The position numbers and the translations under genes were made by a program. The notes beneath the pieces are model-generated. The model made no database searches. It saw only the letters and a program-made list of their open reading frames with translations, and had not been told where the DNA came from. This document shows positions 495 through 63,482 of a DNA stretch of 64,000 nucleotides, one piece after another. How positions within the stretch are numbered: position 1 is the first letter of the stretch; the number at the start of each line of letters is the position of its first letter. This DNA comes from Polytrichum commune (lineage: Eukaryota > Streptophyta > Polytrichopsida > Polytrichales > Polytrichaceae). The stretch lies in assembly GCA_950295325.1 (NCBI GenBank), contig OX485804.1, positions 61,472,533-61,536,532 on the forward strand. The letters are read 5' to 3'.

Positions 495-3400
495 CTAGCT
501 CGTCATGTATTGACCAGGTATTTTGCCCACAACAAGATGGTCGCCATCTTCCTTCACAACATCTACTGTGTATGGTGCTCCCGTCCCTGCACAAGAGGCA
601 ATCACACGTGTCATTCAGGCAACAGTTTAATCTAAATCCACGTGTCTGAATGAATTATGACAATATCAGTAGCATCCACTAAGATACAATAAGCTCACAG
701 CATGCAGTGAGACTGCCTGAGCAATCATTCCTTTGTAACAAGGCATTACATGCATCAGTCTGGATACAGTGAAACATGGACATTTGCAAGTAACTAATTC
801 AAACTCCCACAGATTATTCTACAAACCTAAGTTTGTAGCTTTCAAGTAAAAATGTGATTTTGCCACCTCCATCATTGATGGCAGTGGTGTGAACAGTACC
901 CACGAACTTCTTCAAATTTGAACACAAGTGCACATGCACATCTGAAAAACGTGTCAAACTATCCCAAGCACATAGTGCTTCTTGCATAACCTGAAAAAAT
1001 GATGACTGGCAGTCCTGGCATCACTGCTTGAGTTGTAGATTTGATTGTGGGACCTTCCTACCAATTGAATTTGCTATTATCAATGTACCCAATCAAGACA
1101 GCTTTTTGGTTTAATAAAATTGATGACTAAACTCCACCCAGGTCATAAAATGGCGAGCATCCAAAAATAGAACAAAAATGTTAGTCGCTGTAAATTGAAG
1201 TGCTACACAACACCAACCTGGAGGTAGCAAATTCTTATACAAGAAGTCAAGGACCGCTCTACTGTTGATGTCTTTTGCATGACTCACATCCAGTCCACCA
1301 GCCATCCTGCAATAATACATACTTGGTCAAATAATGATTACAGAAAACCTAAAAGTGGAGCCATAAGAATTGAAAGCCCACTGCAACTTTGCTGCCTCCA
1401 TATCCTTCATAGTACTTCCACTTAAATCATCAGATAATCATACAAACAACTTCAAGCATATCCTATTCTGCACTGAGCACTTTCTACACAAATCCTAAAA
1501 CCATCTTCTAAGCTGGACATACAACAGTCACCAAAAGCCTGACTATGAAGGGATAGCATTAATTTTTTCCTGGAGTTGCATACCCTGCTTTCTTGAGAAT
1601 GCTTGCAAAGAGCAATGGGAAGTCGGATTGATCCATGTGAGATGTGCCCTACCATCAAAACACATCAGCCAATAAGTATCACAGCTTATACACCAAAAAA
1701 AGAACTACTTTGTGGCTCCAATTTTGAGGTGATACAAAACAAAAAAAACTTCATGGTACTGCACATGAATGTTCTAAAACCTGAAGATTACTTTTATAGT
1801 AAGAAGCTCTGTAACTGGTGCATATCCATTCCTGTCGACCTTCGATCTTACAGCCAGAAACCTATTCCGGCACTCTCGCAAAGAACTCCAGTCAAACTTC
1901 TCTGTATTCAGTAGCAATACAGGGACATTGCCAGCCACGCTCCTGTAGTCGGTCTACACATCCACCAGATTATTAAGATATTCTGAATATCTGCCCTAAA
2001 TGAGTATCAGGAAGAGCAAACAAGTAGCAAATGTGTTTATGAATTTGCATAGTGATTACAGTTCGATCAACTAGCAACTAGCACCACACTTATGAACTCC
2101 AATTACGAAGGGTATTCATGTCCAATCCAGATAGAGCAGATCCTATATATTCAAGTTTGTAACATGTCCTTGGAAATCTCAGATGTGGGATATACATAAA
2201 TGTGCATAATACCAGTGCCATTCTATAACTATAATATAGAAATCTGAGTCAACATCCAAATAAGGGTTTCTGAGTTGGGTATGATAAGTAAAGATATGTT
2301 AAACTTCTTGATGTCAAAGCAAGAGACCCCACCTCTTCCACAGGTGCCCACCACACATCTTCAGCTACACAACACTTGAACCTTTTATCAACACCGCATA
2401 CAGCAATAGCTGTGGCTGCTCCAAAAGAGTGCCCATGCATTGCTAGGAGGCTCAGATTCAGGCGCCCTTGAAAGAACTTTTCATCAAGTGCAGCCCTCCC
2501 TTTCAAAACATTGGAACCTTGAGGGAGCAATCCCTGATCCAAAGCCTCAAGAACCTCCACAGCTTTCTGTACTTCTTCAACCCTCTGCACAGATAAAACA
2601 TAGCAGTAAGTTGCCTTGTCTCCTACTTAAGTATCTGAAATACCCCCAGAATAAATATTCAATAATCTCATCACATGCACCCTTGCAAACAGGTAACTGA
2701 AGAAAGACTTTTCCCAGCACATCACGAAAGGCAGAAAGTCTAAGGGGGCACCAAAAATATGGACCACTGACAAGACATCCCAAATTCATTCCTACCTGTC
2801 TGAGTTGCTTTGTCCTGTCAGCCATGGGAACATCATCAAAAGGGACATTAGCATACGCATGCTCAACCCATCTCCGCCTGCCTTTATGATCATGATATTG
2901 AGCAATAACGGCCGATCCATCTAAATGCTCCACGGCTACAACAACTGTCATAAAGGAGTACGCACCCTCAGAAATGCTTATCAAGGCTCAGCACAAAAGG
3001 CCACAGCACCATTGCCTGCCGGCTCAAGAACCTTGAGATTAAGATATCCAAGACCCAATGTCATGTAGTAATGAATGACAGCTATACCAGAAACTTGTTG
3101 CCACAGGATCTAAATCAGGATTGTCACAATAAACGTGGCATGGCATATTTTACGTTGCGTGTAATGGCACAGGTAGGTATCCCACTTACATGTGGATCAT
3201 TTTGTCTTGTAAAACTACAGTGTCCGATAGACACAAGAAAGGGAGAACACAGACACAAGCTTTCAGAAACACTCACCGTAACCGTGAGAGGCAATATCAA
3301 TACAGGTTGCAGTATATGTTGTCCGGCAAGCCCACATGCCATGTGAGAAAATAACCACTGGAAGGCGCCCTTCATCTGCTTTACTTTCTGGGACCAATAG

Positions 3401-4855
3401 TGGTTGCTTCACAGATGCTTGTGTTGGCACAAAAGGGTAGAAGAAGGGATATACCATATCTGCACGATTCAGATGCATCCAACATTCAGTGCCACATGGA
3501 GTGCTATGGTTCCACACATGGAATCTTCTCCTCCACCATTTACAGCAACATAGAACCCAACGATTAAAGGGTCATTTACACTAGAGGTGGATTGTAATTG
3601 TGGTTGTGGTGGTGGTGGTGGTGGTGGCGGCGGCTCCAGTTTACTTTCTTTGGTTCTAATTCCATGGAAAAGGCCTGATAAATGTAAGCCACAACCACCC
3701 TCTACCCCCATCAACCCCCACTACTCTACTCTGCGTGGTTAACCACCCTTAGGGTGCTTGTACATTTGTAAATGTGGCGCCATTAGACAGCTTCAAGGCC
3801 AATGTGAGTGGAAAAACCTGGGGTGGCAGCCACTTTCACACTACACTCCAAGACCAACAAGAAAAATCATCACTTCAAATTTCTTCTCGAGTCCAAGACC
3901 TAAACAAATGATAGATTGCGATTTGGAAGACCGACCCACCACCAACCACAGCACAAGGATTCGCACACTACAAGTATGAATGAAAAAAATCGTAGTCGTG
4001 GATATTGTGGTGTTTAGCCACAACCACAAGCACCTCCGTAGTGTAAACGACCCTTAAGAGAGATAATAGGAACGAGGGATGTCGATTGACAATGGCCAGT
4101 GTGTAGTATTCAGAAAAAGGGGCAACAGTTAAAACAGCTGTATGCGCTCACTCGGGTACCTATCTATCTTTGCAAAGATTGACCAGAAGGCCTGGAAAGA
4201 CCTCTTTGAATCTCACATTAAAATAAGGCAAAAAAAATCTCTGGATATATGATAATTTCTTCAGCATCTCATCAGGCTCACCTGATGTCACAGGAACACT
4301 TGGAACTCAGGGAAGGAGAAATGGAATCTGCCACTTTCTTAGATTCACAATTGACATCACTAATTCCAGCTGCAAGGGCAACTTAACAGCCGTATGCTTT
4401 CCCCCCATCAATTTGGATATTACTTGTAACTCGGAAAGGCTTCCCCTGAGAGAAGAAAAGAAAAGATACGATAAGAGGGATAGTGAGCTGTAGCCAAGAG
4501 ACTTACAAGTTAACATCCAGACAAAGGAACGTCGAAGTTGGCTCTTGGGAAGGATAGCTCGAGAGAGGAACCCCCACATGTAATTCAAATTAGGCACCCA
4601 GCTTCGAACCTTTCTGTCCAAGAGCGACTTTCCACTCTTGGACGCCGTGGGATAAAATATACGCATGATCGGAGCTCCCTCCGCACTTGCCACCTTTCCC
4701 GCCTCCGTATTAGCATTCCCATTCGCATTCCCGTTCCCATTTCCACTTCCACTTCCATTCTGCGGCTGCCCCTGCCCACCGGTTGCTTGTGTCCTTCGAA
4801 GCTCAAACTCTGCAAACGAGACTTCGAATGGGCCCAGAGGCTTCGGCAGCCCCAT
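495..4855 (-). CDS. PAF-acetylhydrolase-family serine esterase (phospholipase A2 group VII/VIII-like), 8 exons
   Basis: Family members hydrolyse the acetyl or short oxidised acyl chain at sn-2 of phospholipids. I read eight exons: 4507-4855, 3277-3459, 2796-2944, 2328-2584, 1792-1942, 1584-1648, 1218-1306 and 495-586. Phases join without a break to give about 444 residues, the usual family size. Exon 1 (start MGLPKPLGPFEVSF) carries the FYP motif and a Gly/Asn-rich insert. Exon 2 has the PVVIFSHG oxyanion-loop strand. Exon 3 continues as VVVAVEHLDGSA. Exon 4 holds the nucleophile elbow GHSFGAATA and then CCVAEDVWWAP, where the Asp is the likely triad acid. Exon 5 has the VLLLNTEKF strand, and exon 6 the catalytic-His stretch GTSHMDQSDF. 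Exon 7 is AGGLDVSHAKDINSRAVLDF. The ATG at 4855 is used because the in-frame opening upstream is only a TTG. No signal peptide is evident, so it is probably cytosolic. The exon 4 donor (GTCTCT, 2327) is weak; the other junctions are good. A MITE sits in intron 1. The family is established by motifs; substrate in this plant is inference. Confidence 0.9.
3568..4054. mobile_element. Tourist-like MITE (487 bp) in intron 1 of the PAF-AH gene
   Basis: Terminal inverted repeats AGGGTCATTTACACTA (left) and TAGTGTAAACGACCCT (right) are flanked by direct TAA at 3565-3567 and 4055-4057, the 3-bp TWA target duplication of PIF/Harbinger-type elements. The repeats extend inward through a GGTTGTGG-rich segment that pairs with its complement near the right end; the left copy contains a (GGT)n run. 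There is no coding capacity, so it is non-autonomous. It lies wholly inside the intron spanning 3460-4506 and does not touch either splice site. Confidence 0.8.
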
Positions 4856-5600
4856 CTCACAAACTGACAATCACACCTTGATGATGCTCTCACAATTCCA
4901 CGAGCCCTAGCAATTGCTACAATTAATTCACCGAACTCTGAACTGACTCGCCCAATGTGGCCAAATAGAGCCCATACACGGGCTTATAGTATTATTAGTA
5001 CATGTGATGCTGGGAATGCAGCAGCCAATGCAGCTTCCGCAGCTTGAGACACTCCCGAGTCCCGATGACAACCCCGCAGTAATTTAGCCGAGATGATATG
5101 TCATTTTTTTGGGTGATGAGGGAGGCAGGGAGCCACCGAAACGAATGCACGCGGCCACGAAAGCGCCGACCAGAGAGCTTTTCTTGGTCTCCTATTTGAC
5201 GATTTCACATCGGACAGATTGGCATGTATTCCACCACTGAACCCCTTCACACTGCCTGCCCTCCTCATTTGCTGCTTTCCCAGCTTTTGCGCACAACCGC
5301 TTTCACACTCTAGCAGCCAGACACGCATGCTTCTTCGCCGTGAAACAAATTTCGCAGAACATTCTTCAGTTACAGCAGCTCGGTGAGGCTAGCACCACTA
5401 CTGTGACCATTGATCCTAGAGTCTACCTTAAAAGTTGTCCTCTGAATCTATGATGGGGAGGGTGACCGAGGTTACAATAGCAAAGTGATTGAGCTTAAAT
5501 TAGCAAGGTGACCGGGCATCTAGAACCCATGGCCCATGTACAACATTAGTACGGGCCCATGTCGTCATGGCCCTTTGCAATCCGTATAGGCTAGGGTTAC
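4856..5600. promoter_or_regulatory. Upstream region of the PAF-AH gene
   Basis: This is the 5' side of the minus-strand esterase gene, so its promoter and 5' UTR must be here. The part next to the ATG is moderately GC-rich with CpG retained (about 5040-5330). I do not see a convincing TATA box at the right distance. The open frames in this stretch are short and show no family similarity that I recognise. Confidence 0.3.
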
Positions 5601-5935: not shown

Positions 5936-7080
5936 TCATGGGGGGACCCATGATCCAGCAGCCCCACCAAAATAATAATAATAATAATAATAATTTAAAA
6001 AAATCCCGACCAACAATTGTTGCTCGACCTGTCCGATTTCAAAAAGCATCGCCCTTGCATTCTTGAATGTTGCTTGTCCACAATCCCATATTGAGTGCAC
6101 TTTACTTTGAAGGCCCAAAATCCAACATATACGTTCACTTCCCCTTAGTAATAAAGCAATTGATTGGGATTTCATTCCCAAAGTGAAACCAAAAACATGT
6201 AAATGAATGTCAATAAAGCTTGTAATAAACTTGAAAGTAAAAAATATTACAAGATCCTCATTAGCATTGAGATTATAATGTGCGTGACTTACCATTTGAA
6301 AGGGACTTTGTGATTCTAAAGTGAAACTTATAGTTAGTTTGTTTAGTTTATAACAATTTAGTTAATGCCTTCTACTTTCATAAATACTCATATTTGAACT
6401 AATTAAGTGTGATTGAATGTAATAAATCATTTTTAATTCAAGTAAGCACATTTTAGATATAATTAGGCTCAATTACGTTGGTAAGCATTATTTTTATTTT
6501 ATTATATTTAATTAGGCTTGATACACTTAATTACACTTATTCAGCTTAATTAGCTGAAAATGTATGAATACTTGTGAAAGTGAAAGGCGCTAACTAAATT
6601 ATTATAAATAAATAAATAAAACTAAAAACAGCACACTAATATAAGTTTCATTTTAGAATGACCAAAAGACCCTTTCAAATGGTAAGTCATATATATATAT
6701 TATAACATCAATGCTAATGAGGGTTTTGTAATATTTTTCACTTCTAAGTTCATTACATGCTTTATTGACATTCATTTGCATGCTTTGAGTTACACTGTGG
6801 AAATGAATTCCCAATCAATTGCTTATTTACTAAGGGGAAGTGAACATATATATTGAATTTTGGTCCTTCAAGGTGAAGTGCACTCAATATGGGATTTGTG
6901 GACAAGTGGCCTTTAAGAATGTGAGGGCAATTTTTTTTGGAATCAGGCGGGACATGCATGCAACAATTATCGGTCGGGATTCAAAATAAAATAAATTTTC
7001 CAAGGTTGCCCAGGGGTGCTTGATCGTGAACCCCGGCCCTAACACCCCCTTTTCCCCATGATGGGGTCATGACTCGGTTG
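5920..7080. repeat. Large imperfect palindrome (~1.16 kb) centred near 6500
   Basis: Left-arm landmarks recur as reverse complements at matching distances on the right. GAGTCATGACTCCATCATGG (5922) mirrors CCCCATGATGGGGTCATGAC (about 7055). ATCCCGACCAACAATTGTTG (6003) mirrors the CAACAATTATCGGTCGGGAT stretch (about 6960). The CAATCCCATATTGAGTGCACTT part mirrors AAGTGCACTCAATATGGG (6878). AGGGGAAGTGAAC pairs with GTTCACTTCCCCTTAG, and ACCATTTGAAAGGG with CCCTTTCAAATGG. The inner part, on either side of an AT-rich middle, also pairs. No coding sequence is visible. It is best read as a foldback transposable element or an inverted duplication of one. Confidence 0.75.
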
Positions 7081-9190: not shown

Positions 9191-9299
9191 TATTATTTAC
9201 TTTATTTTATTTTTAGTGTTGTTTTAATGACAGGTCTAGGGGTTTGTGGTGGGTTGTTTGTTTGCAAGAGACTCTGAGAGATTCAAAACTGGTTATAAG

Positions 9300-9836
9300 T
9301 TAATAGGTTAAGAATGATCACTAAGTTACGAAAACTAATTATAAAAGCTCCGAGAGCACAAATGAAGGATCACAACCACTGAGAACACAAACCAAAAACT
9401 CCCCAATACATAATGCAATAGGCACAAACAACTCTTACACAAACCAAAAGTCACGATCACGTTCTACAAGTTGAGAACAACAAAATGCACAAGCAAAAGT
9501 TACAACCACCAAGAACCTCAAGAGGATAGACAAAAGAGGAAGAGGTCTCACAAGGGCCCTTTATGAAGTCCCTTGTGTGGGTGGGTGAGATTGGAAGTGC
9601 TCATGGCTGGCCTTATTAAGACTTGATGTATATCAGTTGTAGGCTAGTAAACGTATGGATACAAAGTCAACAACGTATTAATCTGGATTTTAGTAATGAT
9701 AAAAATAAGAACCCTTAGACAGGGGGTTGTCTTACACCAAGTGATATTCACTCAATAGACTCCACTTCACAAAGATAAAAGTCCATTGCCTTGGGCTTCA
9801 AGATGAGAATACAAAGACGTTGCAAAACCCAATCAT
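9300..9836 (+). repeat. Dispersed repeat family R1, copy 1 (~535 bp)
   Basis: This stretch aligns along its length with 62950-63482 in the same orientation. Shared blocks include AGAACACAAACCAAAAACTC, GATAGACAAAAGAGGAAGAG, CTTATTAAGACTTGA, ATACAAAGTCAACAA, GTCTTACACCAAGTGATATT and GTCCATTGCCTTGGGCT. By eye the two copies are roughly three-quarters identical. I see no terminal inverted repeats or long open frame. A retroelement fragment (LTR, LINE or SINE body) is likely. Confidence 0.7.
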
Positions 9837-11442: not shown

Positions 11443-13272
11443 CTATCTGATGTGGATCTTTTTAGGAGGTGTTTCACATCTGGAATTGATTCTTGGAAGA
11501 AGCCAAAGAGACGGATGTGTCTTACCAAACAATTTCCTCAAGTTTGCCCAGCTCTTACCCTCCTTCTGACCTCCACTCTTCCAGCCCTCTGAGGCAAGTG
11601 AATCTATAAATGTTTGACCACTATGGAGGAGTTGGAGCTGCTGTTGAAGCAAAAGACCCACTCCAATGAGCAATGCAAGTGCTGCGATGACGAGATATAA
11701 TAATGCAAATGCCCGCAGTGATGCAACAATTTCCGTGGTGTGAAATAATGAATTCAATGTGTCACCTACCGCATGGAAGCCACTCCCCACATGCAATCGA
11801 GGCAATTTCCCTGTGTGAAACTTCACCAACTTTGGCCACACCTGTAAGCTGGCAAATAAGGTCATCATCAAGACATAGAAACTGCTTGCCGCTGTAAACA
11901 CCAGGAACAGTAGGAAATGTTGGTGATTGTTCGCTCCTACGCAATTCCCGATCTGCCACACATGTGCAGCGGAAGTGCATACCATAAGCTTTGAGTGGAT
12001 ACAAAGAGTGCATGTGACTACAAACCCTTGAATTGACCCAGATAAAACATCACTGACAAAGTTGGAGGTACCATACATCAGTACAGTTTCAACACATATC
12101 TGGCATTGACAAGATTTAGAGCTCTTCAATATTGTACTTCCTTCACATCCCAGCCCAATAAGGTTTTCTTTGATTGCTTTCTGGACCATACTGGACTCAA
12201 TGATCTATGCCTTATCACTGCCATTATTCAAGAAGGATGTCCCCCTACAAAAGAACAGGGGTTAGAAACAGGAACACAGCAGTAGGAAGGAATGAAAATC
12301 TCACATACAAAGGGGCAATGATGATCCATGTCGACAACACAAGCCCCACAACTCCGACAATGATGAGCATTCGGTGGTTTTGGCAGGTTACAATGCCCGC
12401 AAAATTTGTACCCCTCAAGAGCTTTTCTTCCAACTAATTCGTATTTGCCCCATTCTATATGCGGAGATGGTCCAGCTGATGAAAAGGCTGCCACACAGAA
12501 ATTGAACAGTGTGTTGAAGGCAAGAATAGCTGTGATGATTCCATGTACAAAAAATTCCATTGACATTTTTGGGAAGAGAACCGGGAATGTTGACCAAACC
12601 CCTCCACCTGCAACCAAATGCTTGCATCAGATTACAGAAATGGCACATGGTGTTCAGAGGGCTTTATTTGTAGCATTATCCATCCGGCAGACTTGTTCAC
12701 TTCCTCAGAACAATTGACTAATAGGGTCAACCCAATGATACAAATATACCCTGTTACTGCAAGTATGGTCCCTAACGTACATCATTCATGTCCAAGGTTG
12801 CATCTATTTGCAAATTTATGTAAGGAAAAGAAAGTCAGTAATGATCCACACCCCCATAGCTTGGAATGTAAGCAAAATGGCTTATAATGAGGGGGGGTAA
12901 AAAATACATAAAAGGAAGAAAGGTCTGAGAATGCTCACATACGATGGAGAAGATCACGAACAGAACAAAGCACACAAAGAAGCGGTCTCGTGCAACTGAG
13001 CATCGTCGGCTCCACCGCGACACTCCTTTGCTCTCAGACTTGTGCACAGAAATTGCTCCACACCATCCGCACTTGAACATTGGTGAAAATTTGGGAAGAA
13101 CCACCCGCAGGCCACAACCCCAACATGTGGTTTCCCATCCCATGCGCTCCTCCACGTGCGTCTGTACCCACACCACATCCACACTCTTAAATTTCCAGGA
13201 TACATTGCAGACCAGATTTGTATTGTGGTTGCCACACATGATGGTCACCCAGTGTTGGCCCCAGGTTACCAT
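11443..13272 (-). CDS. DHHC-type protein S-acyltransferase with N-terminal zinc ribbon, 4 exons
   Basis: Palmitoyl transferase that attaches acyl chains to cysteines of membrane-associated proteins; such enzymes are integral to Golgi, ER or plasma membranes. Exons are 12939-13272, 12712-12756, 12309-12607 and 11443-11952, giving a continuous frame of 395 residues. Exon 1 carries a Cys-rich ribbon (CWGC, then CGWCG) as in Arabidopsis PAT10/11-type enzymes, then a hydrophobic helix (FFVCFVLFVIFSIV). Exon 3 has a second membrane helix and the cysteine-rich domain FCGHCNLPKPPNAHHCRSCG, followed by the catalytic DMDHHCPF. Exon 4 completes it as IGNCVGANNHQHF and supplies two more hydrophobic helices near FLLFLVF and LLYLVIAALALLIGVGLLL. 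The basic tail has the QTFIDSL and NLRKLFG stretches that resemble that plant subfamily. The donor after exon 2 (GTTCTG) is weak, so that small exon is less certain. The ATG at 13272 lies 10 bp from a tandem repeat array. Confidence 0.9.
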
Positions 13273-13282
13273 TTTTTAATAT

Positions 13283-14555
13283 GATTCACATGTCCTAACA
13301 TTCATGTCACAGGACAGAAAGGCGAGTGACTTGATTCAAACCATCAATACTGGACCCAATCCTCTCAATGTCATCCTTGGCTAACGAAACGACAGTCAAG
13401 CACCCCTAACCCTAATTGAAATTACACAACATTATTTTTCACATTGCAGGTTTCACGATCACAAGGAAAACCACACACTGTTGCGCAGACTATACCACCC
13501 ACTCTGAGGTAACGAGCCAGATTTTGCTGCCATATCCAGATGCTACCGGTTGAGCGCATAAACCCCAATTTACGTCCTCCGAAGTCAACATTCTTTGGTA
13601 TAATTCACATGTCCTAACATTTATTTACAGAAGAAAATTAAGAGATACTTGGTTCCAAAGTATGCTACTAAACCCAATCCTCTATAAATGTCATTCTTTC
13701 CTGATGAAACGGCAGGCAAGCACCCCTTATCCTACCTAAAATTACACACCAAATTTTTCAACCTGATAGTTCAACAAATCACATGGAAACCACACACTGT
13801 TGCGCAGGCCATACCGCCCACTCTGAGAGAATGAACCAAATTTTGCCGCAAAATTCAGGTGCTACCAGTTAAGTGCATAAACCCCACCCTACCTCCTCCG
13901 ATTTTAGCATTCTTTGGTACGATTCACATGTCCCAACATTCATTCACAGAAGGGAAAGAAGACTGACCTGATTCCAAGGTATTATACTAAATCCAATCCT
14001 CTATAAACTGTCATTCTTGGCTGATGAATCGGCAGGCAAGCACTCGTAACCCTCACTGAAATCACACAAAAAGAATAAAAAGAACCTGCCGGTTCTACAA
14101 TCACATGGAAAACCACACATTATTGCGCAGACCATACCACCCACTCTGAGAGAATCACCAGATTTTGCTGTCATGTTCAGGGGCTACCGGTTAAGTGCAC
14201 AAACCCCAAACATCCTCCAATTTCAACAATCTTTGGTATGATTCACGTGTCCCAACATCCATTCACAGAAGAAAAAGAAGAGTGACTCTAATCCGACGTA
14301 TAAATACTAAACCCAATCCTCTCAATGTATTTTTTTGCTGATGATATGGCAGGCAAGCAAGTAACACCTAACCCTTATTGAAATCGCACAACATTTGTTT
14401 TCATATTGCTGGTTTCACAATCACATGAGAAACCACATACTGTTGGGCGGACCACACCACCCACACTGAGCGAATGAACCAGATAGCCCCACCACCAAAT
14501 TCAGATTCTACCGGTCAAGTGCATAGAACCCAATTTACGTCCTTCGATCTTCCAC
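13283..14555. repeat. Four tandem ~320-bp repeats upstream of the acyltransferase gene
   Basis: Copies begin at about 13283, 13603, 13922 and 14240, each opening with ATTCACATGTCCTAACATTC or a close variant. They share internal landmarks in the same order: AAACCCAATCCTCT, GGCAGGCAAGCAC, AAACCACACACTGTTGCGCA, CCACTCTGAG, AGATTTTGC and CATAAACCCCAATTTACGTC. Period is 318-321 bp with moderate divergence and small indels. No copy is coding. The first copy starts only 10 bp upstream of the acyltransferase ATG, so the array is the gene's immediate 5' flank, either 5' UTR or proximal promoter. Confidence 0.85.
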
Positions 14556-24099: not shown

Positions 24100-26250
24100 G
24101 CATCACCCTGTTTCATTTCCCTCTATCCCTATTTCTATTCCTCACTTCTCAATGCCCCCTTGCTTGAATTTTCGTCATGCTACTTCCTCTAGCAGCATTC
24201 CCTCTTCCCCTGCATCTCATCCATTCACTTCTATTCCTTTTATTTCTCCAGTGAGAGAACTCTGTCCCATACAACGCAATTCTCTGACTGCAGTGGAAGA
24301 TCACTCTACACCTCAATTGGTAGTCTTAAGACAATCAGTGGGAGCATTACCACCTCCAATGGTGCCTCCACTGGAAGCAGTGGGAGTCTCTATACCATCT
24401 ATTGCTCAGGTTTCATCCATTTCTCCTCCATTTGCTCCTTCTCTCATTACTAGTATCCCGCTCCACTACCGCACATCACTACTTCCTCGGTTTCTACACT
24501 TCCTCGGTTTCTACACCAACACAGGCTGAACCTCATCTGCCAAGTATAAATCCCTGGACCAATTACATTGTGAAACAAAGAATTTATCTGCCTTCAAGAC
24601 CCTGAGTGTATCTCATGTTTTTCTCGCTGCACTCGGAGAATGCATAGCAGAGCTAAAGACTTATAATGCTACCCTCAAGTCTCCTCATGTGGACCGAGGG
24701 GAACATGCTATGGATCTTGAATATCAGTCCCTCAAGGAGAACAAACTTGGCGACTTGTGCCTCTTCCTCCTGGTCGAAATACCATCCAGAACAAATGGGT
24801 CTATAAAGTCAAACACAAGGCGAATGGGATATTGAAAAATTCAAAGCAAGACTCATTGCTAAGGGATATACACAGGTACCTGGTGTTGATTTTTCCGAGA
24901 CATACTCACCTGTCATCCTACACTACTCTATCCGAATAATTTTATCTACCGTTGCCACTCGTTATATGAGGTTACAACAGCATGATATCAGGACAACTAA
25001 TCTAATTGGTGATCTACTTGAAGAAATCTAAGTGGATGCTCTTCAAATGTATTATGTGTGTCTCTTACTCCGGAGTTTATATGGCTTGCGCCAATCTGCA
25101 AATCTGTGGAACAAAAAGTTTGATGATTTTCTTTTTCAATTTGACCTTATGGTGAGTCCAGCCGATCCCTGTGTTTATCATAACAAAGACGATCTTCATA
25201 CGATTACTGGCATCTATGTTGATGACGGGGTTATAGTATCAGCACAACAGTCTCATACTGATGGCATTATTACCTATCTTCAAACTGCTTTCAAAGTAGT
25301 ATTAGGCACCATGGACTACTTTGTAAATTTTCAACTTGAGTTTGATTGTGACAGCCATTCTATCTTCATTCACCAACCTCGTTACATATCCGAGATCATT
25401 CACATATTTGGACTTGATACTACCAATGAAGCCACGACTCCTGCCGATCCTCATGGTCAATTATAGAAAAATGTTGGGCCTCATGATCCACTTGTACACG
25501 TACTTTACCGCGAAGAGTTGGGTGTCTTATGTATGCCATGATAGTTACACGGCCAGACTTTGGCTTATGCTATCAGTAAGGTCGCTACATATCAAGAACA
25601 ACCACAACAGTCACACTGGGCAGCCCTAAAAAGGATTTTCCGCTATCTCAAGTCGACCCTCCAATACGGGATTCTCTATTCATCCTCTATATCCAATCCT
25701 CGTCTTTGTTGGTTACCGAGATTCCGATTTTGTTGGGGATCTCGATGACAGGAAATCACGCATATCGTACGTGTATCTCCTCGGTGACTCTGCGATTGCG
25801 TGGGCCAGTCAGAAGCAAGCTTTGATTACTGACTCCACCACAACTGCAGAATTGATCGCAATATCCGACACCGTCAAAGATATTACTTGGTTAACTCGTC
25901 TTCTTGATAGCTTGAGCATTCAATCTCCTCTCGCCATTACAGTTTATCGTGACAATCAAGTTGCTATTCAACTTATCAAGAATGTTGATTACCATAGGCA
26001 TAACAAACACATCGATGTGAAGTTCCTCTTCATCCACGAATTTTAGACACAAAAATTGATTGACTTCGTTAGCGTCCCTACTAATGCTCAGATCGCTGAC
26101 ATTTTCACAAAGCCCCTTCCCTGGGATGCTGTAGGAGCAAAAAAACACCTTCCTTTGTTGTTCGAATGTGGAATGAAAACATCTTACTTTGCACTAGATT
26201 GTTTACACCTTGGGCCTGGTATTTACATGTGTGTGGAGTTGCTAATCTAA
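24100..26250 (+). mobile_element. Degenerate Ty1/Copia retrotransposon (pol 3' half)
   Basis: Blocks of a Copia polyprotein occur in the right order but in broken frames. A Pro/Ser-rich linker lies at 24100-24520. The start of reverse transcriptase is near 24760-24960 (NKWVYKVKHKANG, then a frameshifted AKGYTQVPGVDFSETYSPV). The RT core is at 25056-25460, with SLYGLRQSANLWNKKFD and the active-site YVDDG at about 25217. RNase H is at about 25770-26046, with IAWASQKQALITDSTTTAE and YRDNQVAIQL. The terminal TNAQIADIFTKPL motif is at about 26080. Stops at about 25029, 25465 and 26044, together with frameshifts, make it inactive. Gag, protease and integrase were not recognised upstream, and no LTR pair is obvious. 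A duplicated AAGGAAGTTTTAGTGGAAGG occurs just beyond (26322 and 26371). Confidence 0.85.
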
Positions 26251-29200: not shown

Positions 29201-29805
29201 ATAAAATAAAATGTGAATAGAAAAGGGTAAAAATCAACACCTTAATGTGTTGGAAGATATTGACAAGATAGGACTACGTGGTCAATTTATGGAAGATCTT
29301 GCAACTTTAATAAAAAAAAAAATTAATTGAATAGCAAGGGTGTTATTTTTAATAATCAAAATTTTCAATGTTTATATGAAAGGTCCAAGTCACTCTAACT
29401 TACAAAAATCTTAATGTTTGGGCATGTCAGTTTGCAAAATAACCACAATTGTTTTTAAATGGACCAACATTTTAAAATTACAAAACATGAGAATGTATCA
29501 TTATATATATAAAATTCTACTAGAAAACAACTCAAAAATATCATGCGTTGTTGAGAGTAATTCCCAAAAAACTAAATTCATTACTCGACACATGAAAGCC
29601 ATCATGCCATTTTCTCTTGCACGCATTTTTTTCCAAATCGGTTACATCTACAAATTGGTTTTTCTCCACTTTACAAAAGTCCTCAGGATAATTTGACAAA
29701 TTTCCAAATGCCATCTTTAATGGTGTCAAAATCCAACTTTACCAAGTGGTCCTCATCATTATATGAACAAAGTCCTAACACAAAGTAAGAAGGTCATAGC
29801 TATTG
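26251..29805. other. Intergenic after the Copia fragment
   Basis: 26251-26500 may be the 3' end of the retroelement. 26580-27500 is GC-richer, with overlapping open frames on both strands (up to 178 codons on the minus strand) that show no recognisable domain; it is probably an old element. A cluster of GGGAA/TTCCC motifs lies at 27140-27275. 27520-29800 is AT-rich and apparently empty. Confidence 0.35.
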
Positions 29806-30611
29806 TATGGAATGCCAAAAGGACCATACTTTGTAAAACAAGGTACCCCGGGGAAGATGCCCAGTGCCCAAGGAAAGATTCCATGTACCCCGAGGTATAA
29901 TAAGAAAAAATATTAGTAATTAAAAAATTTGAAATTATATTATTCAATTTTTAAAATGATTAAAATTTTAAATAATTTTACATTTTAGTTAGATATATTT
30001 TATTTTAAATAAAATTTCTTTTTCTTTTTCTTTTTAAGTGATACTATCACTTTTTAAAGAGACATTTGAGTTATTAACTGCTTTAATTTAATTTCTTTTA
30101 TATTAAGAATAAATAAGAAATGGAGAATAAGTTTTATTAACTTTTCTCAATTTTGGTTAGAGGATATTATAATGAACCCCTTAATTTATGTAATTTATAT
30201 CTTAATTTATGCTTAATTTATGGTTTAAGTTCAGGGGTTCATTATAATATCCTCTAACCAAAATTGAGAAAAGTTAATAAAAATTATTCTCCATTGCTTA
30301 TTTATTCTTAATATAAAAGAAATTAAATTAAAGCAGTTAATAACTCAAAATGTCTCTTTAAAAAGTGATAGTATCACTTAAAAAGAAATTTTAATTTTTT
30401 TTATTTAAAATAAAATATATCTAACTAAAATGTTAAATCATTTAAAAATTTAAGCCTTTTTTTAAATTAAATAATGTAATTTCAAAAAAATTGTTAATTA
30501 CTAACATTTTTTCTTATTATACCTCGGGGTACATGGAATCGTTCCCGGGGCACCGGGCATCTTCCCCGGGGTACCCTGTTTTACAAAGTACGGCCCTTTT
30601 GGCATTCCATA
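29806..30611. mobile_element. 806-bp foldback element (near-complete palindrome)
   Basis: The two arms mirror each other over almost the full length. TATGGAATGCCAAAAGG at the left end pairs with CCTTTTGGCATTCCATA at the right. GGTACCCCGGGGAAGATGCC pairs with GGCATCTTCCCCGGGGTACC. The TTTAGTTAGATATATTTTA and AAGTGATACTATCACTTTTT blocks have mirrors, and ATTATAATGAACCCC pairs with GGGGTTCATTATAAT next to a loop at about 30183-30232. Direct CTATTG flanks both ends (29800-29805 and 30612-30617), a likely 6-bp target duplication. There is no coding capacity. The ends are GC-rich while the arms are AT-rich. Confidence 0.85.
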
Positions 30612-30840
30612 CTATTGGCCTCGTAGAATTCCGGCCAAGGGGCAATCGGGTCACATCATTGGACAAAGTCCCATAGTAGGCCATGGTCCTCCAATGACTA
30701 TCTAGAGAGCGTTCTCTCACATGGTTTATCCTTTGTGGATGGTTAATCATGAGGGTAGGTAGTATATAAGGCAAAGTGTCTCCACTATAGATGGAGTTTG
30801 TGCATAGTGCAAAATTGACGTGGGAGTCACATTGGGGCTT

Positions 30841-34948: not shown

Positions 34949-35407
34949 CACCTTAAACTCCGTAATATCAACCTCCATAATGTCACACACTCTCTAATAT
35001 CTTGAAACCCTAGGGAACGGATGTTTGTAGTTCAAATCTCACTCCTTAATGTCACATTTCTCTCCTTTATATCACAAAATTTGTCATTAATACAAACCAC
35101 CAAAGAAGTCAATCCACACCCTCACATTGCGCCATGTGTCAACATGTGGAGTGTCACCTTCTTATTCTTCTTCTTCTTCTTCTGCCACTTGTTGAATGTT
35201 GGTGCATGCGTCCGCCACATCGCCTGGGAAAGCCAAGTGGAGTGGACCACACTAGCGTAGTGTCCTCACATCTCCTTTGTGTTATTCCATAGTGTCACAT
35301 GCCACACTAATTCTATAGCATCACGCATCCATGTTAACACTACAAAACTCCGTAATATCGCGTGCACTTTTGGTTGCCACAGGTGTGATACTACGGAGTT
35401 TAGAGTG
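34949..35407. mobile_element. TA-flanked MITE family R3, copy 1 (459 bp)
   Basis: Ends CACCTTAAACTCCGTAATAT and ATACTACGGAGTTTAGAGTG are inverted repeats flanked by TA on both sides (34947-34948 and 35408-35409), as in Tc1/mariner (Stowaway-like) elements. Inner landmarks TTGAATGTTGGTGCATGC, GCCACATCGCC, GTTATTCCATAGTGTCACAT and GCATCCATGTTAACACTAC recur in the second copy at 59117-59383. A (TTC)n run lies at 35164-35180. There is no coding frame. Confidence 0.8.
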
Positions 35408-35645
35408 TATCAACCTTTGAGTAACGACATAGCTTTAACTTGTAGCGACCTCGACCTCCTTCCTACCTACCTACCAATGCCCATCGACCTAGCTCACATG
35501 GTTTGTGTCCCAGTTCACATACTAGATCCCACTACCCATATTGGTTGCGGACCGGCAACTACAGATCCTGGGTCAGGTTACATCCCTAGTGTCAGATGGA
35601 CCTCCTTTTTCCTCTCTATTTGCAGAGAGAGAACAAGGGCCCACT

Positions 35646-40002: not shown

Positions 40003-40369
40003 GGGCCGGTTCACACATTGGGGTCCCAAGTTCTAAGTTCCAAGTCACTAAAAGCCAATCCATGCAATCTCGGACGTTAAGAGCATGGAAGTTGGGACTT
40101 ACCACATCACATGGGGTCCCAAGTATGACACGGATGCCTACATGGCAACACTTTTTAAAGGTGAGGTTTGGGACTTGTGTTAAGAGTTGGGTCGAGCAAA
40201 AAACTAGACCCAACTCTCAACACAAATCTCGTGGATATTTTGTATGAAACATTCAAGATCCAATATCACGAATAAGTAATGGTGTCTTGAGGCTCAAAAG
40301 TTGGGACTTTGCCTCCATGTGGGGACGCGCTAACATGAGTGGCACTTGGGACCCCATGTGAACCGGCCC
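40003..40369. mobile_element. Tourist-like MITE family R4, copy 1 (367 bp)
   Basis: Inverted ends GGGCCGGTTCACACATTGGG and CCCATGTGAACCGGCCC are flanked by TAA at 40000-40002 and 40370-40372. The centre holds a second strong hairpin, TTGTGTTAAGAGTTGGGTC with GACCCAACTCTCAACACAA. The same element occurs in opposite orientation at 58066-58440. It is non-coding. Confidence 0.85.
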
Positions 40370-53505: not shown

Positions 53506-55290
53506 CCACGAGACTCGCCTTGGATATTGTTTACCCGTATAGACCCGAAGTTGTCAAAAACTAGGTGAGTTTTAGGTGAGTTATGTAGAAAGTTAAATAT
53601 GTTGATTTTCCCGATTCATTTTGGGCCCTTCATTTAGGGTCCAAGTCCAACTAGATTTCGGTTTGATATGAAGGAGATGATGTTCTGAGGCGAATTTGAT
53701 TTGCGTAGAAGGTCACTAAAATTTGAGTGAGGAGGCATGTTTTCTTGCTCATGGGTGTTGTCTTTTGTAAGAATCAATTATCTTTTAGCACTTTGGACAA
53801 CAACCCAAAACAAATGTGCTCCAAAGATGGCTTTCAAGTTCAATATAAGAGACACACATCACCCAATCAATGGACTTTGACCATCTTTAGAACACGCAGA
53901 TGAACTCCACATTTCAAATTTCAAATTTCTCGCATGTATGATTGTCAATTTTGCACATGTGTGTATATTTCAACTGATGGGTCGCATTCATTCCCTTACC
54001 CAAATTCAAAAAACCCAAAAATTTTCACTAGCCACCCCCAACTTATCTCAACTTTGTGACCGTTCATGATCTTCTCACCTTTTTTCCTCACGCCTTCATT
54101 ATGAAGTTGGCTTCTACATGCAAGTGACCCATCAAAACAAATGTTGGTGATAGTGAGCTCAAATACCCTGAACATCAAGGGTGAAAATTCTAAGCTCATT
54201 GGAGCACACCCTGAGCCCGAAACAATAAAGATTTAAGGCCTAGGTGAGTGACAAGGCTATGCTAGGCTAGAAGGCTACTGCTAAGTCTAGTCCCCGGATT
54301 TCTTTTCCTAATTTAATAAGACTTAGCCCTTCGTTCCTTGAACCGAGATTGCTCATCCCCTCCAAGACCACAAGAGGGCAAATCCATTTGGCTCGATTCC
54401 CACGCCTTAGATTGCTTTCTAAACTTCTTCTTTTTTGTCCTTTTAACCCAAAAAAAAAACCCCTTACATGTTTCAATTGATAATTTTGAGGAATTCTCAA
54501 TGTTTTTGAGAACGTCTTTGAGTTGGATAAGGAAAAAAAATGAAAAAAAACAAAACTCGAGTTGTGTGGGAATCTTGTTCTATCAAAGAGAAAAACAAAA
54601 GGATATATATATATATATATAATGAGGGAAATATGTGAACCCTATACAATATGGGAGAAGAAGACTTGCATATGAATGAAGTCATAAAATCATATGATGT
54701 CATGAGAAGGCATTCGTGTATTAACAAAGCAGGGAGTTCCTAACTCTTAGAAAATGCAGCAAAAAATCACAAACACAAACACAGCCAACTTCTTATTCAT
54801 TCCCAAATAGCTTAAATTGCATATTTTGAAGTGAGGTTTATGTAAATCATACCTCAAACAACAACAATGGTCGTCGTTGTTGTTGTTTTATTGGCGCAAA
54901 TTGAAAAAATCAATTGCAAGAAAAGAACCAAAGTACAATGACCACAGAAGAAACAACGCACACCGAGGGGAGATCAAGAAATAATATTCATCTAGGACCT
55001 AACCTTCCACATAACCACCAAGTTACTTCATGTCACAGTAAGACCTTTGACCCCCAAAGTTGAATCGAATTCGTTAAGGACAACATCTTGGTAGACCACG
55101 TCCGGACCTTTTCCAAATCCGTGAGAGTCCCTTTCCACTCAATCCTATCATGGTCATTGTTGGAACACAAATGTCATTCTTGACTAGGATGGCTAGTTCA
55201 TAGTTCCTGCAATCCGTAACTAGTGCTCCTTTTTAGAGAGGGTGATCTTGAGCAACCATGAACTTTATAGATAGCTGGAAGTTTACATGA
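53506..55290. other. Intergenic, no gene seen
   Basis: AT-rich with an (AT)n run at 54604-54621 and a short GTTGTTGTTG/CAACAACAAC hairpin at about 54857-54888. Frames are short and without recognisable domains. Confidence 0.4.
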
Positions 55291-55293
55291 TTA

Positions 55294-56340
55294 TGCCCCC
55301 TTCCCACCCGAGTTTACCAAATAACCAAAGTATTTCCTAAAAACCGGGTAAAGCTCCCTTGGTTATAGCGGAGGCCTCCGGCTATCCCAATGCACCTACA
55401 AGAACTTGCTCCGGAGATTTTCAAGTAGGTTTTAATTAAGTAGCTTTCACACATGTTCATTGTTTTATCTACCAAGCAATGAATGTTGGGTAGTTTTTGT
55501 CTCATCCCCAAATGCCCTACTACTCACCTATCTTATGCTCCCTTCCCACCTGATTTTAGCTAAGACTAAAAGTTGGTTCTAACAAACCGGCCTTCACACC
55601 ATCGACATTTATCTAGTGCCGAGGCTAGTTAGCAAATGATGTGGCATGGCTTAAAAGTGGACGTTTTAAGCCTCAAGCACTAAGCCTTCCATCGGTACCT
55701 AAACATGAGGCAAGAATGTAGGACCTTTAAAAGTGTCGCCTCCCGCCCTTGTGATTGGTTGCTTTTAGTCTTGGCTATGAGGGCACGAGGAGCTTCATTA
55801 ACAAAAATTGATGGTAAGATAGATGAGTAGTGAGGCATTTGGGGATGGGACAAAAACTATCCAACATTTCATTGCTTGGTAGATAAAACAATGAACATGT
55901 GTGAAAGCTACTTAATTAAAACCTACTTGAAAATTTCCAGAGCAAGTTCTTGTAGGTGCATTGGGATAGCCGAATGCCTCCGCTATAACCGAGGGAGCTT
56001 TACCCGGTTTTTAGGAAATACTTTGGGTCTTAGCTAAAGTTAGGTGGGAAGGGGGCATTACCATCGGCTTTTGTCAATGGAGCTCCTCGTGCCCTCATAG
56101 CTAAGAGTAAAAAACAACCAGTCACAAGGGCGGGAGGCGACACTTTTAAAGGGCCTATATTCTTGCCTCATGTTTAGGTACCAATGGGAGGGTCGGTGCT
56201 TGAGGCTTAAAACCTCCACTGTTAAGCCATGCCACATCATTTGCCAACTAGGCTCAGCACTAGATAAATGTCGATGGTGTGAAGGTTGCGTTGTTAGAAC
56301 CAACTTTTAGTCTTAGCTAAAGTCAGGTGGCAAGGGGGCA
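55294..56340. mobile_element. 522-bp MITE family R5, outer copy, split by the inner copy
   Basis: The outer copy is 55294-55532 plus 56061-56340, which together with one TTA at the junction equals about 522 bp. Its ends are TGCCCCCTTCCCACCC and the inverted AGGTGGCAAGGGGGCA. The left flank is TTA (55291-55293) and the right flank TTG (56341-56343), a slightly decayed 3-bp duplication. The outer halves are the reverse complement of the inner copy's two halves. Non-coding. Confidence 0.85.
55536..56057. mobile_element. 522-bp MITE family R5, inner copy, inserted in inverted orientation
   Basis: Ends TGCTCCCTTCCCACCTGA and TTAGGTGGGAAGGGGGCA, with perfect TTA at 55533-55535 and 56058-56060. The insertion point lies inside the outer copy at CCTATC|TTA|CCATCGG, which matches the inner copy's own uninterrupted centre (CATCAATTTTTGTTAATG region, reverse complement). 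Hairpin pairing of each half with the other copy is extensive. The TWA duplication points to a PIF/Harbinger-type transposase acting in trans. Confidence 0.88.
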
Positions 56341-56343
56341 TTG

Positions 56344-57075
56344 CATTGGTTACAAAGACCCCATGAAGTGATCCCCGAGGCATTGCGACATTGTATATTG
56401 AAATTGTGATTTGACTGAGAGTGGAGATATCAGTTTATGGACTCTGAAACTGTGAGTCCGGGATAAATGAATTATGAGCATAAACACTTCATACTTGTTA
56501 TGAAGCTGACGTGCGACACTCGCATTAGACTCAAATCCATCATTCCTTCACATTTTGTCACCAACACCTGCTGTTGGAGGTGCACTGAAAATGTGATTCT
56601 ATAGGTTTATTATCTCAATTGCACGAATTTAATTTCGCTGCTAAATGTTGTGGGGTCTTTGGCCCAGAGTTTGGGAAGTTTTTGAAGCCTTAGTGGCTAA
56701 TTGCCGGTAGTTGCTACGAAGGGTCGGATTTTTCCCAATTTACATCGGCAACAGCCAGTCTTTTGTAAAATCAATCGGCCAATTGCCTATATTTTCATAT
56801 TTTCATTGGCCAATATCCGATTAAATGGAATTCATATCGGCACTAACTGTTTAAAAAATGTATGAAAAGTTATTAGAAATCATTTCTTAGTACAAAATCT
56901 TGAATAAGTGAAAAGAAAGGCATGTTCAAAACTTTAAATTTGAAGAGTTAATATCCTTGGCATGAATTGAACCTAGCAATGCCTTCACCGCTTGAAGGCC
57001 AAGGGTCCCCCAATTCTTCATAGAAGCAATTGGATTTGGTCATGGAAAGGTTGCATAATTCAAAAAGTTTAAGGT
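56344..57075. other. Intergenic before the hAT remnant
   Basis: AATTGCC and ATCGGC motifs recur (about 56700-56850), but no ordered repeat is seen. No gene found. Confidence 0.35.
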
Positions 57076-57310
57076 TTAGGGTACTTCTTCAAGTGCGTCA
57101 TCAGATGCCCCAGACAAATAACGCTCTGGATTGCTATACAAATAGCGAAACTTAGCAGCATCCTTCCAAAGATCTAGAGCACTTGTTAGAATGTCATCAA
57201 AATCATTGTCTGGGCCTTCTATAGCAACACGCAACATACTTTCTAAGTTAGATGTAGACATTCGAAGTTGCCGTTCATCTTCGAAGCCCTGACCTACATC
57301 CCTCGATACT
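57076..57310 (-). pseudogene. hAT-type transposase C-terminal tail (remnant)
   Basis: Minus-strand translation gives FEDERQLRMSTSNLESMLRV, then VAIEGPDNDFDDILTSALDL and LWKDAAKFRYLYSNPERYL before a stop. The order (N-L-x-x-M/L-x-R-V-x-I-x-G-P, F-D, A-x-x-x-W) is that of the segment following the hAT dimerisation domain in hAT-like proteins. The upstream transposase body was not found within this window, so it is a fragment. Identification rests on motif recall, not a search. Confidence 0.5.
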
Positions 57311-58065
57311 TGCCTGCACTCAGATACCCATGCTCATGACCCGGAGGGTATCGGTTACCATTTTCCGGGTATCGGCTAGTATTTGAATACTTCTTCCGGA
57401 TGAAATCCAGTAACTCACAAGAAGAATCGGCTACATTTCTGGGACATTTTCTGGTCCATCAGCTAATTGCTGGAGGATTGAAATTACAGGGATATTGCCA
57501 TCCGATGGTTGGAAATTTGGACAGGCCATGAGGGGAAATCCATCGGCTGATAATGAACTAGCCGTCGGTTTTCCCCGACCATTGCTTTGGCCCCTGACTT
57601 AGGTGTTAATTCGGTATTATTTTTATTTTTTTCCACAAGCTCTAGATACATAAAATTCAACATTGTCATCCTCCCCGATGATAAGTGATGCAAACATGCA
57701 TCCCCTGCCCACTCTGATTCCATGCATCATTTTTTTACGATGCGTTGATTTCTTTGGATTTCTTGTTTCTTTTTTTACAATGATATGTCTCATATGTAAT
57801 GCCAAGAATTGATTATTCCGATAGACCTCTGAAAAACTTTGCAATTCTTATAAGCTCTTGTTTGTTACGTGGGCCCCAAGGGACAAGGCCACCTTAATCT
57901 AGACCAAGGGATGATTCTTTGCTCTTTGTACTAGATTCAAGCCTCCTCACTTCACTTCCTCATGCATGTTTAAAACACCAAGCAACGTTGTCAAACTTAA
58001 AATGATATGAATATGAGGTACACTTTGTGTTTGGAGTGTTCCATATATGACCACATTGGAGATAA
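57311..58065. other. Intergenic between the hAT remnant and the R4 MITE copy
   Basis: Mixed composition to 57600, AT-rich after. Short frames only; no recognised domains or repeats. Confidence 0.35.
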
Positions 58066-58440
58066 CAACCAGTTCACATGGAGTCCCACGTTCTAAGTCC
58101 CACTTATGTTAGCAAGTCCCAACTTTTGAGCTTCAAGAAATCCTCAAAACATGGTTAATTATCATCAAAGTTGGATCTTGATTATTTTATGCAAAATATT
58201 TGTAGGACTTATGTTAAGATTTGGGTCTAGCTTTTTGCTCGACCCAACTCTCGACACAAAGTCCCAAGACTCACCTCCAAAACGTGTTGCCATGTAGGCA
58301 TCCATGTAGGCATTCATGTCATACTTGGGACTTAGGACTCGGGACCCCTTGTGAAGTGGTAAGTCCCAACTTTCATGCTCTCAACAATTGAAAGTGTAGG
58401 GATTGACCTCAAGTGACTTGGGACCATGTGCAAAGTAGCC
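58066..58440. mobile_element. MITE family R4, copy 2 (375 bp, opposite orientation)
   Basis: Matches the reverse complement of 40003-40369: AGTCCCAACTTTTGAGC, TTGTGTTAAG-like/GGGTCTAGCTTTTTGCTCGA, CCCAACTCTCGACACAAAGT, and ATGTAGGCATTCATGTCATA. Flanking TAA at 58063-58065 and 58441-58443. The terminal repeats are more decayed (CAACCAGTTCACATGG and the CATGTGCAAAGTAGCC end), so it is the older or less intact copy. Confidence 0.8.
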
Positions 58441-59116: not shown

Positions 59117-59383
59117 CACCCTAAACTCCGTATTATCAACCTCCATAATGTCACACATAATGCCACTTATTGAATGTTGGTGCATGCATATGCCACATCG
59201 CCCGGGAAGGTCAAGTGAAGTGGAACACACCGCACCATTTTATATGTTGCACTTTGTGTTATTCCATAGTGTCACATGCTATGCTAATTCTACAGTATCA
59301 CGCATCCATGTTAACACTACAAAACTCCATAATATCATGTGCACTTTGGTTACCACAGGTGTGATACTACGGAGTTTAGAGTG
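59117..59383. mobile_element. MITE family R3, copy 2 (267 bp, internally deleted)
   Basis: Same ends as 34949-35407 (CACCCTAAACTCCGTATTAT and ATACTACGGAGTTTAGAGTG), with TA flanks at 59115-59116 and 59384-59385. Relative to copy 1 it lacks about 190 bp between CATAATGTCACACA and TTGAATGTTGGTGCATGC. Non-coding. Confidence 0.8.
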
Positions 59384-59385
59384 TA

Positions 59386-62409: not shown

Positions 62410-62940
62410 TTATATGAAAGTGAAAGTTAAGAAACTAAGAGAAATCATATTTTGCCTCAAAGTTAAGAAACTAATAAAGTTAAAAAAACTAACAAAGATC
62501 AAACTATTCTTCAAAGTATGGAAACTAAAAGAGATCCAATAATGAATCAAAGTGAAGGAACTAAGAGAGAAGTCAATACTTAAAAGAGATCCAAGAGAGA
62601 GTGTTAAAAAACTAAAAAGGATATGATAATTATTCAAAATTGGGAGATTATGAGAGATCCAATAATACTTCAAAGTAAGGAGATTAAGAGAGTTCCAATA
62701 ATGAATCAAACCAAAGAATCTAGGAGTTAGATCGAAAATTAAAGAGATATCCAATAATGAATCAAATTGAAGAATCTAAGATTTAGATCTAAAATTTAGA
62801 AAATATCCAATAATGAATCAAACTGAAGAATTTGAGAGTTAGATTAATAATTAAGAGAGATCCAAGAGAGATGAAAGATCAAGCGAGATCCAAAAATTAT
62901 TTAAAATTACGAGGCTAGGAGAGATTCAATAATGGTACCA
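62410..62940. repeat. Degenerate minisatellite (~55-60 bp units)
   Basis: Purine-rich units on the theme GAGATCCAATAATGAATCAA followed by a GAAGAATCTAAGAGTTAGAT stretch recur many times with substitutions and length changes, for example at 62534, 62692, 62751 and 62806. The minus-strand 114-codon frame here is only the translation of the repeats. It borders the R1 repeat copy that follows. Confidence 0.7.
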
Positions 62941-62949
62941 ACCTAGTAA

Positions 62950-63482
62950 ATTAAGAGAGATCACTAATATACTAAAGCTAATTACAAAAGCTCTGATAAT
63001 GCAAATGAAGGACCATAGCTACTAAGAACACAAACCAAAAACTCCTCAAAGCATAATCCAATAGCTGCAAACAACTCTCACACAAATCAAGAGTTAAAAA
63101 CCCATATTCCACAAGCACTGAGAGTCGCAACCACCGAAAGCCTCAAGGTGATAGACAAAAGAGGAAGAGGAGAGTGTTCTAAAGGCCTTTTATGAAGTCC
63201 TTTGCGTGGGTAGGTGGGATTGAAAGTGCTCATGGCCGCCCTTATTAAGACTTGAGGCATGTTAGTCGTGGGTAGCTAAAACATATAAATACAAAGTCAA
63301 CAAGTTCCTATTAGACCGGATTTTAAATCATGATAAAAAATAAGGGCCCTTAAACAAGATGCCGTCTTACACCAAGTGATATTCTTAGAACCACATAAAT
63401 GAACTCTGTTTCACAATGATGAAAGTCCATCGCCTTGGGCTCCGAGATGAGAATACGTAGACGTTGCGAAACCCAAGCCAAT
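62950..63482 (+). repeat. Dispersed repeat family R1, copy 2
   Basis: Aligns in the same orientation with 9300-9836 along its full length (for example AGAACACAAACCAAAAACTC, GATAGACAAAAGAGGAAGAG, GTCTTACACCAAGTGATATT). The end of the match is near AACCCAAGCCAATG. No open frame or terminal structure is visible. Confidence 0.7.

Follow-up and report, generated by a model that had tools for sequence, protein, structure and literature searches.

Miniature inverted-repeat transposable elements (MITEs) are known to insert into members of their own family, which is common in maize and rice according to the available part of PMC3695323, citing Jiang and Wessler (2001). Here we describe a locus of this kind in Polytrichum commune, found in a window of 64,000 nucleotides (assembly GCA_950295325.1, contig OX485804.1, positions 61,472,533 to 61,536,532 of the forward strand; all coordinates below are those of this window), where a 522-bp MITE-like element appears to have been inserted in reverse into an older copy of itself at 55294-56340. 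Same-family MITE nesting is already known, and the locus is nothing out of the ordinary as an instance of it. It resembles the nests of maize and rice in that an element lies within its own family, and it differs from them in that the family is another one. The DcSto elements of carrot, as far as PMC3695323 describes them in the part available, are also similar, as small elements are nested in relatives with readable TA or TTA duplications, including one Tourist-like element with TTA. However, the hosts in carrot are Stowaway-like with TA targets, and a full copy inside an inverted copy of equal length is not among the cases described in that part of the account. Regarding frequency, the accessible text of PMC6171319 gives 20 of 17,651 elements nested in larger ones for MITE Tracker in rice and 10,069 of 36,029 for detectMITE; since MITE Tracker discards overlapping candidates by its own rules, its figure offers no base rate for this locus.

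The other closely related systems are PIF/Harbinger and Tourist-like elements, such as mPing and the Medicago elements, which are described in the available sections of PMC2213677 and PMC2836001 as having terminal inverted repeats (TIRs) and a 3-base TTA or TAA target duplication, as is also the case here. A 9-base extended insertion-site preference is reported for PIF/Harbinger (Tourist) elements in PMC2836001. The account in PMC2213677, as available, requires a G(N)5GTT motif in the TIRs and gives TIRs of 14-25 bp for autonomous PIF/Harbinger elements, whereas the ends at this locus lack that motif and their TIRs are imperfect and about 51-55 bp long.

From left to right, the locus comprises part A of the outer element, the inner copy (B'-A'), a second TTA and part B of the outer element. 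The features are the following:

55291-55293, no strand: left target-site copy of the outer element, TTA (sequence at the outer left flank).
55294-55535, plus strand: left part A of the outer element, 242 bp, the last 3 bases being the inner target TTA (alignment columns 1-243 against the reverse complement of the inner copy).
55533-55535, no strand: left target-site copy of the inner element, TTA (flank sequence and join scan).
55536-56057, minus strand: inner element of 522 bp, reversed relative to the outer one (alignment).
56058-56060, no strand: right target-site copy of the inner element, TTA (flank sequence and join scan).
56061-56340, plus strand: right part B of the outer element, 280 bp (remaining alignment columns against the reverse complement of the inner copy).
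56341-56343, no strand: right target-site copy of the outer element, TTG, with 1 mismatch to TTA (flank sequence).
55536-55590, plus strand: inner element's left TIR, imperfect and about 55 bp long (local alignment of the inner ends).
56004-56057, minus strand: inner element's right TIR, imperfect and about 54 bp long (local alignment of the inner ends).
55762-55777, minus strand: internal copy, within the inner element, of a subterminal motif (TAGCTAAGACTAAAAG-like), with an outer counterpart at 56098-56112 (inverted pairs of the repeat finder and repeat families).

That a small TIR element was inserted into its own copy is, in our opinion, very secure as a reading of the sequence. Excision in silico of the inner copy together with one TTA, a check proposed in a preliminary description of the locus, leaves a rejoined outer element (55294-55535 plus 56061-56340) of 522 bp, the same length as the inner one, which aligns with the reverse complement of the inner copy from the first to the last base. 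In this alignment 476 of 523 columns are identical, with 45 substitutions (30 transitions and 15 transversions) and two 1-base gaps, and the score is 805, compared to -214 for the best of 200 shuffles of the outer element. A join scan combined 20 left ends with 22 right ends, giving 440 excisions of the inner copy; the four joins tied at 805 are the equivalent positions under a 3-base duplication, and the next best scored 800. Moreover, the reverse complement of the inner copy holds CTATCTTACCATC, with one TTA, where the outer element reads CTATCTTA, followed by the insertion and then by TTACCATC. As the inner copy keeps this target uninterrupted and with a single TTA, the locus carries its own internal empty-site control. 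The target TTA occupies bases 240-242 of the 522 in the outer element, near its middle. The inverted arms were recovered independently by the repeat finder, for example as 55526-55766 / 56110-56350 (90%) and 55287-55483 / 55868-56064 (93%). The sequence TGC(C/T)CCCTT(C/G)CCACC is common to all four element ends, in register, and a 30-base terminal pattern allowing up to 3 mismatches gave three matches in the window, all at this locus (mean of 0.00 in 100 shuffles), the outer left end being a fourth end that is too diverged to match.

The preliminary description had placed one element at 55536-56057 inside a copy of opposite orientation, both of 522 bp, with a perfect TTA duplication around the inner one. 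These coordinates and lengths are exact to the base, the duplication is perfect, and the arrangement is borne out by the alignment and the four best joins. Both target sites can also be read, as it stated, with the qualification that the outer pair, TTA/TTG, is imperfect.

We consider it close to certain that a 522-bp non-autonomous TIR transposon was inserted in reverse into an older copy of the same family at a TTA, with duplication of this TTA. The reversed element would have been placed there by transposase-mediated transposition, the target being duplicated on insertion. The enzyme would be encoded elsewhere and, judging from the TTA target, would most likely be of PIF/Harbinger type, while the locus itself is presumably a relic without function of its own. 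Two observations weigh against this interpretation. The motif G(N)5GTT is absent from the first 25 bases of all four ends (0 matches), which leaves the kind of transposase uncertain and is the reason why we do not assign a superfamily. In addition, the outer boundaries depend on homology to the inner copy and on the imperfect TTA/TTG pair. We think that the locus makes a clean textbook example, in which ends, length, target duplication and internal empty site are all obtained from one place without a second genome; the family has been outlined from two copies alone.

Regarding the class of the element, its length of 522 bp, its imperfect terminal repeats of about 51-55 bp (local alignment of the ends) and its flanking target duplications, TTA/TTA for the inner copy and TTA/TTG for the outer one, are those looked for in a MITE. 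A single stop-to-stop frame of at least 75 amino acids overlaps 55294-56340, and a Pfam search with it gave no family (E limit 0.01); shorter frames were not searched. The element is probably best described as MITE-like with a TTA target and no recognised coding sequence among frames of at least 75 amino acids. Non-coding MITE derivatives exist for Tourist-like and PIF/Harbinger elements, and the 3-base TTA duplication of the inner copy is the one expected of a PIF/Harbinger (Tourist) target. Comparison with Stowaway and Tc1-mariner elements is complicated by the fact that TA lies within TTA: the join can also be read as a 523-bp element that duplicated only 2 bases (TA), at the cost of ends that are 1 base out of register. 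The element end TGCCCCC is unlike what we take to be a Stowaway-type end.

Within the element, the internal repeat of the subterminal motif (55762-55777 and 56098-56112) adjoins TGCCCTC, similar to the element's own end. One possibility is that the right half was at some time a shorter element; another is that proteins bind to the motif as a repeat.

The order of events can be read from the layout, as the arrival of the inner copy must be later than the existence of the outer one, and the perfect inner duplication compared to the imperfect outer one agrees with this nesting order. The Kimura two-parameter distance between the copies, estimated from their alignment, is 0.093; it is a measure of the time since their common ancestor, and the nesting can be no older than that, but it does not date two bursts. 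The preliminary description had seen two rounds of activity dated by the locus; their order stands, and their dates do not, since the divergence reflects the lineage split of the copies and dates neither insertion. Regarding possible decay of the methylation type, ten of the 30 transitions lie at CG and four more at CHG, in one or the other copy, as raw counts with no expected value. Gene conversion was considered for the outer left end, where 20 columns hold 7 mismatches, and dropped, because 1722 of 20000 random placements reach the same clustering.

The possible consequences for RNA deserve separate consideration. The complementary parts follow each other in the order A, B', A', B, with A pairing with A' and B' with B, so that the pairs cross. 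As they cross without a spacer, both long helices should not coexist in one molecule; this predicted arrangement of two crossing, mutually exclusive long hairpins arises because the inner copy landed almost in the middle of the element. Folding was predicted with a program that disallows crossing pairs. The minimum-energy fold of the plus strand (1053 nt) has a predicted -595 kcal/mol, and the minimum-energy folds contain 254 (plus) or 249 (minus) predicted B:B' pairs, A and A' being mostly folded on themselves. For the alternative state, the left three parts were folded together and B alone, and the sum of the energies was compared with that of the B':B hairpin plus A alone. The three left parts have 225 (plus) or 229 (minus) predicted A:A' pairs, B:B' pairs in the parts amount to 257-263, and the sums of the separately folded parts are -575 kcal/mol for the A:A' state vs -592 for the B':B state on the plus strand, and -561 vs -568 on the minus strand. 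The two copies folded apart give -366 (plus) and -329 (minus) kcal/mol, and 20 mononucleotide shuffles give a mean of -283 and a lowest value of -302. Any transcript would be expected from these models to hold a long duplex in either state, far stronger than that of the separate copies or of the shuffles. Thus, the proposal in the preliminary description of a long double-stranded RNA from the locus is retained as a prediction in a modified form, in which the crossing order A-B'-A'-B would allow one hairpin or the other and not a duplex of the whole element.

If transcribed, the locus would be expected to form one of the two mutually exclusive hairpins, of nearly equal predicted energy, which could feed small-RNA silencing. 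A stronger proposal is that it functions as a small interfering RNA (siRNA) source, silencing its family in trans as a natural inverted-repeat trigger. The plus-strand folding energy compared to those of the separate copies and the shuffles is in line with it, as are the nine runs of identity of at least 21 columns between the copies (the longest of 65), and the available part of PMC2996936 reports small RNAs from wheat MITEs as well as a higher number of small RNAs on nested elements of the top layer (P = 0.047). Nevertheless, every such inverted pair would fold likewise, folding alone being uninformative on function, and the locus has no established gene model spanning 55294-56340. We regard a working trigger as improbable. 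It is more improbable still that the locus codes for a two-state RNA with crossing hairpins of near-equal predicted energy that, if transcribed, could be a natural trigger providing small RNAs against either half of the family. The siRNA consequence would be important only if borne out by small-RNA data.

A second alternative concerns the place where the nesting happened. A 1047-bp composite might have been formed elsewhere and then moved here as a whole by its outer ends, TTA/TTG being the composite's own duplication. This explanation still includes self-insertion and differs from insertion at the present site only in where the nesting took place. Terminal repeats and a near-perfect duplication are still present at the outer ends, so these would remain usable in principle, and nothing within the window separates the two histories; but composite mobility needs an extra event and a second composite was not found within the window. 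We judge it quite unlikely, although less so than the explanations that dispense with insertion altogether.

Among the latter, inversion or ectopic recombination between neighbouring copies can be practically dismissed: adjacent inverted copies are in general substrates for such events, but recombination would not be expected to double exactly 3 target bases that are present only once at the corresponding site of the inner copy, nor to leave two full 522-bp copies with four ends in register, and it is already contradicted by the alignment and the join scan. An assembly artefact with a false inverted copy is just as implausible, for inverted repeats are prone to misassembly, but these copies are set apart by 45 substitutions and 2 gaps, and the junctions show the correct target duplication.

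Further members of the family were sought in several ways. A sensitive blastn search with both copies against the window (55291-56343 masked) gave no convincing third copy, and one 40-base match with an E of 0.095 was taken as chance. Zero matches were obtained in viral contigs (with the 30-base end pattern and with a core pattern of 36 bases), in prokaryote genomes (with a core pattern of 27 bases, exact matches only) and in plasmids (with the whole locus, blastn); as these collections hold no plant genomes, the zeros are uninformative on copy number and neutral for a eukaryotic element. Rfam (gathering threshold) and ARAGORN gave no matches in the window. No paper on the 522-bp family surfaced in topic-based literature searches, no sequence-based literature search having been made.

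Other features of the window were surveyed by a Pfam search on 20 stop-to-stop frames, 9 of the 48 of one list and 11 of the 47 of another, in two runs with E limits of 0.1 and 0.01. Five frames had matches above the curated cut-off, two to PAF-AH_p_II, two to DHHC and one to RVT_2, and one of the five also had a Chlorophyllase match below cut-off; one further frame had a match below cut-off only (PAF-AH_p_II, 4310-4870), and 14 had none. None of the matched frames is near the 55294-56340 locus. The PAF-AH_p_II (platelet-activating factor acetylhydrolase) frames are exon-like and lie at 2252-4870 on the minus strand, with E of 8e-16 at 2252-2626 and 3.2e-10 at 3266-3571. Two adjoining DHHC palmitoyltransferase frames are found at 11446-12626, also on the minus strand (E 2.3e-9 and 1.7e-11), and that at 11446-12204 has a weak resemblance to solved palmitoyltransferases (best E 0.00022). 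For the frame at 57079-57333, comparison with solved structures gave no convincing relative (best E 0.2). The RVT_2 reverse transcriptase fragment at 25032-25463 on the plus strand (E 1.6e-16) is probably a piece of a Copia-type retrotransposon.

Several repeats are also present. A long foldback at 29802-30615, with arms at 29802-30188 and 30226-30615 and 37 bases between them, is 97-100% complementary in its inner parts and 91-92% in its outer parts; it has the appearance of a foldback or long-TIR element of its own, with no obvious target duplication in the flanks inspected. Another long inverted repeat, at 6035-6944, has arms of about 430-445 bases and a 37-base spacer, and its flanks suggest that the complementarity extends outward. 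The segments at 40037-40347 and 58095-58424 belong to one repeat, perhaps a small dispersed element; the two copies are inverted and diverged and lie about 18 kb from each other. Repeat pairs in direct orientation occur at 35183-35409 / 59161-59385 and at 9268-9786 / 62911-63430, and over 13260-14547 a unit of about 320 bp is repeated in tandem about four times, with segments 62-88% identical to their reference copies.
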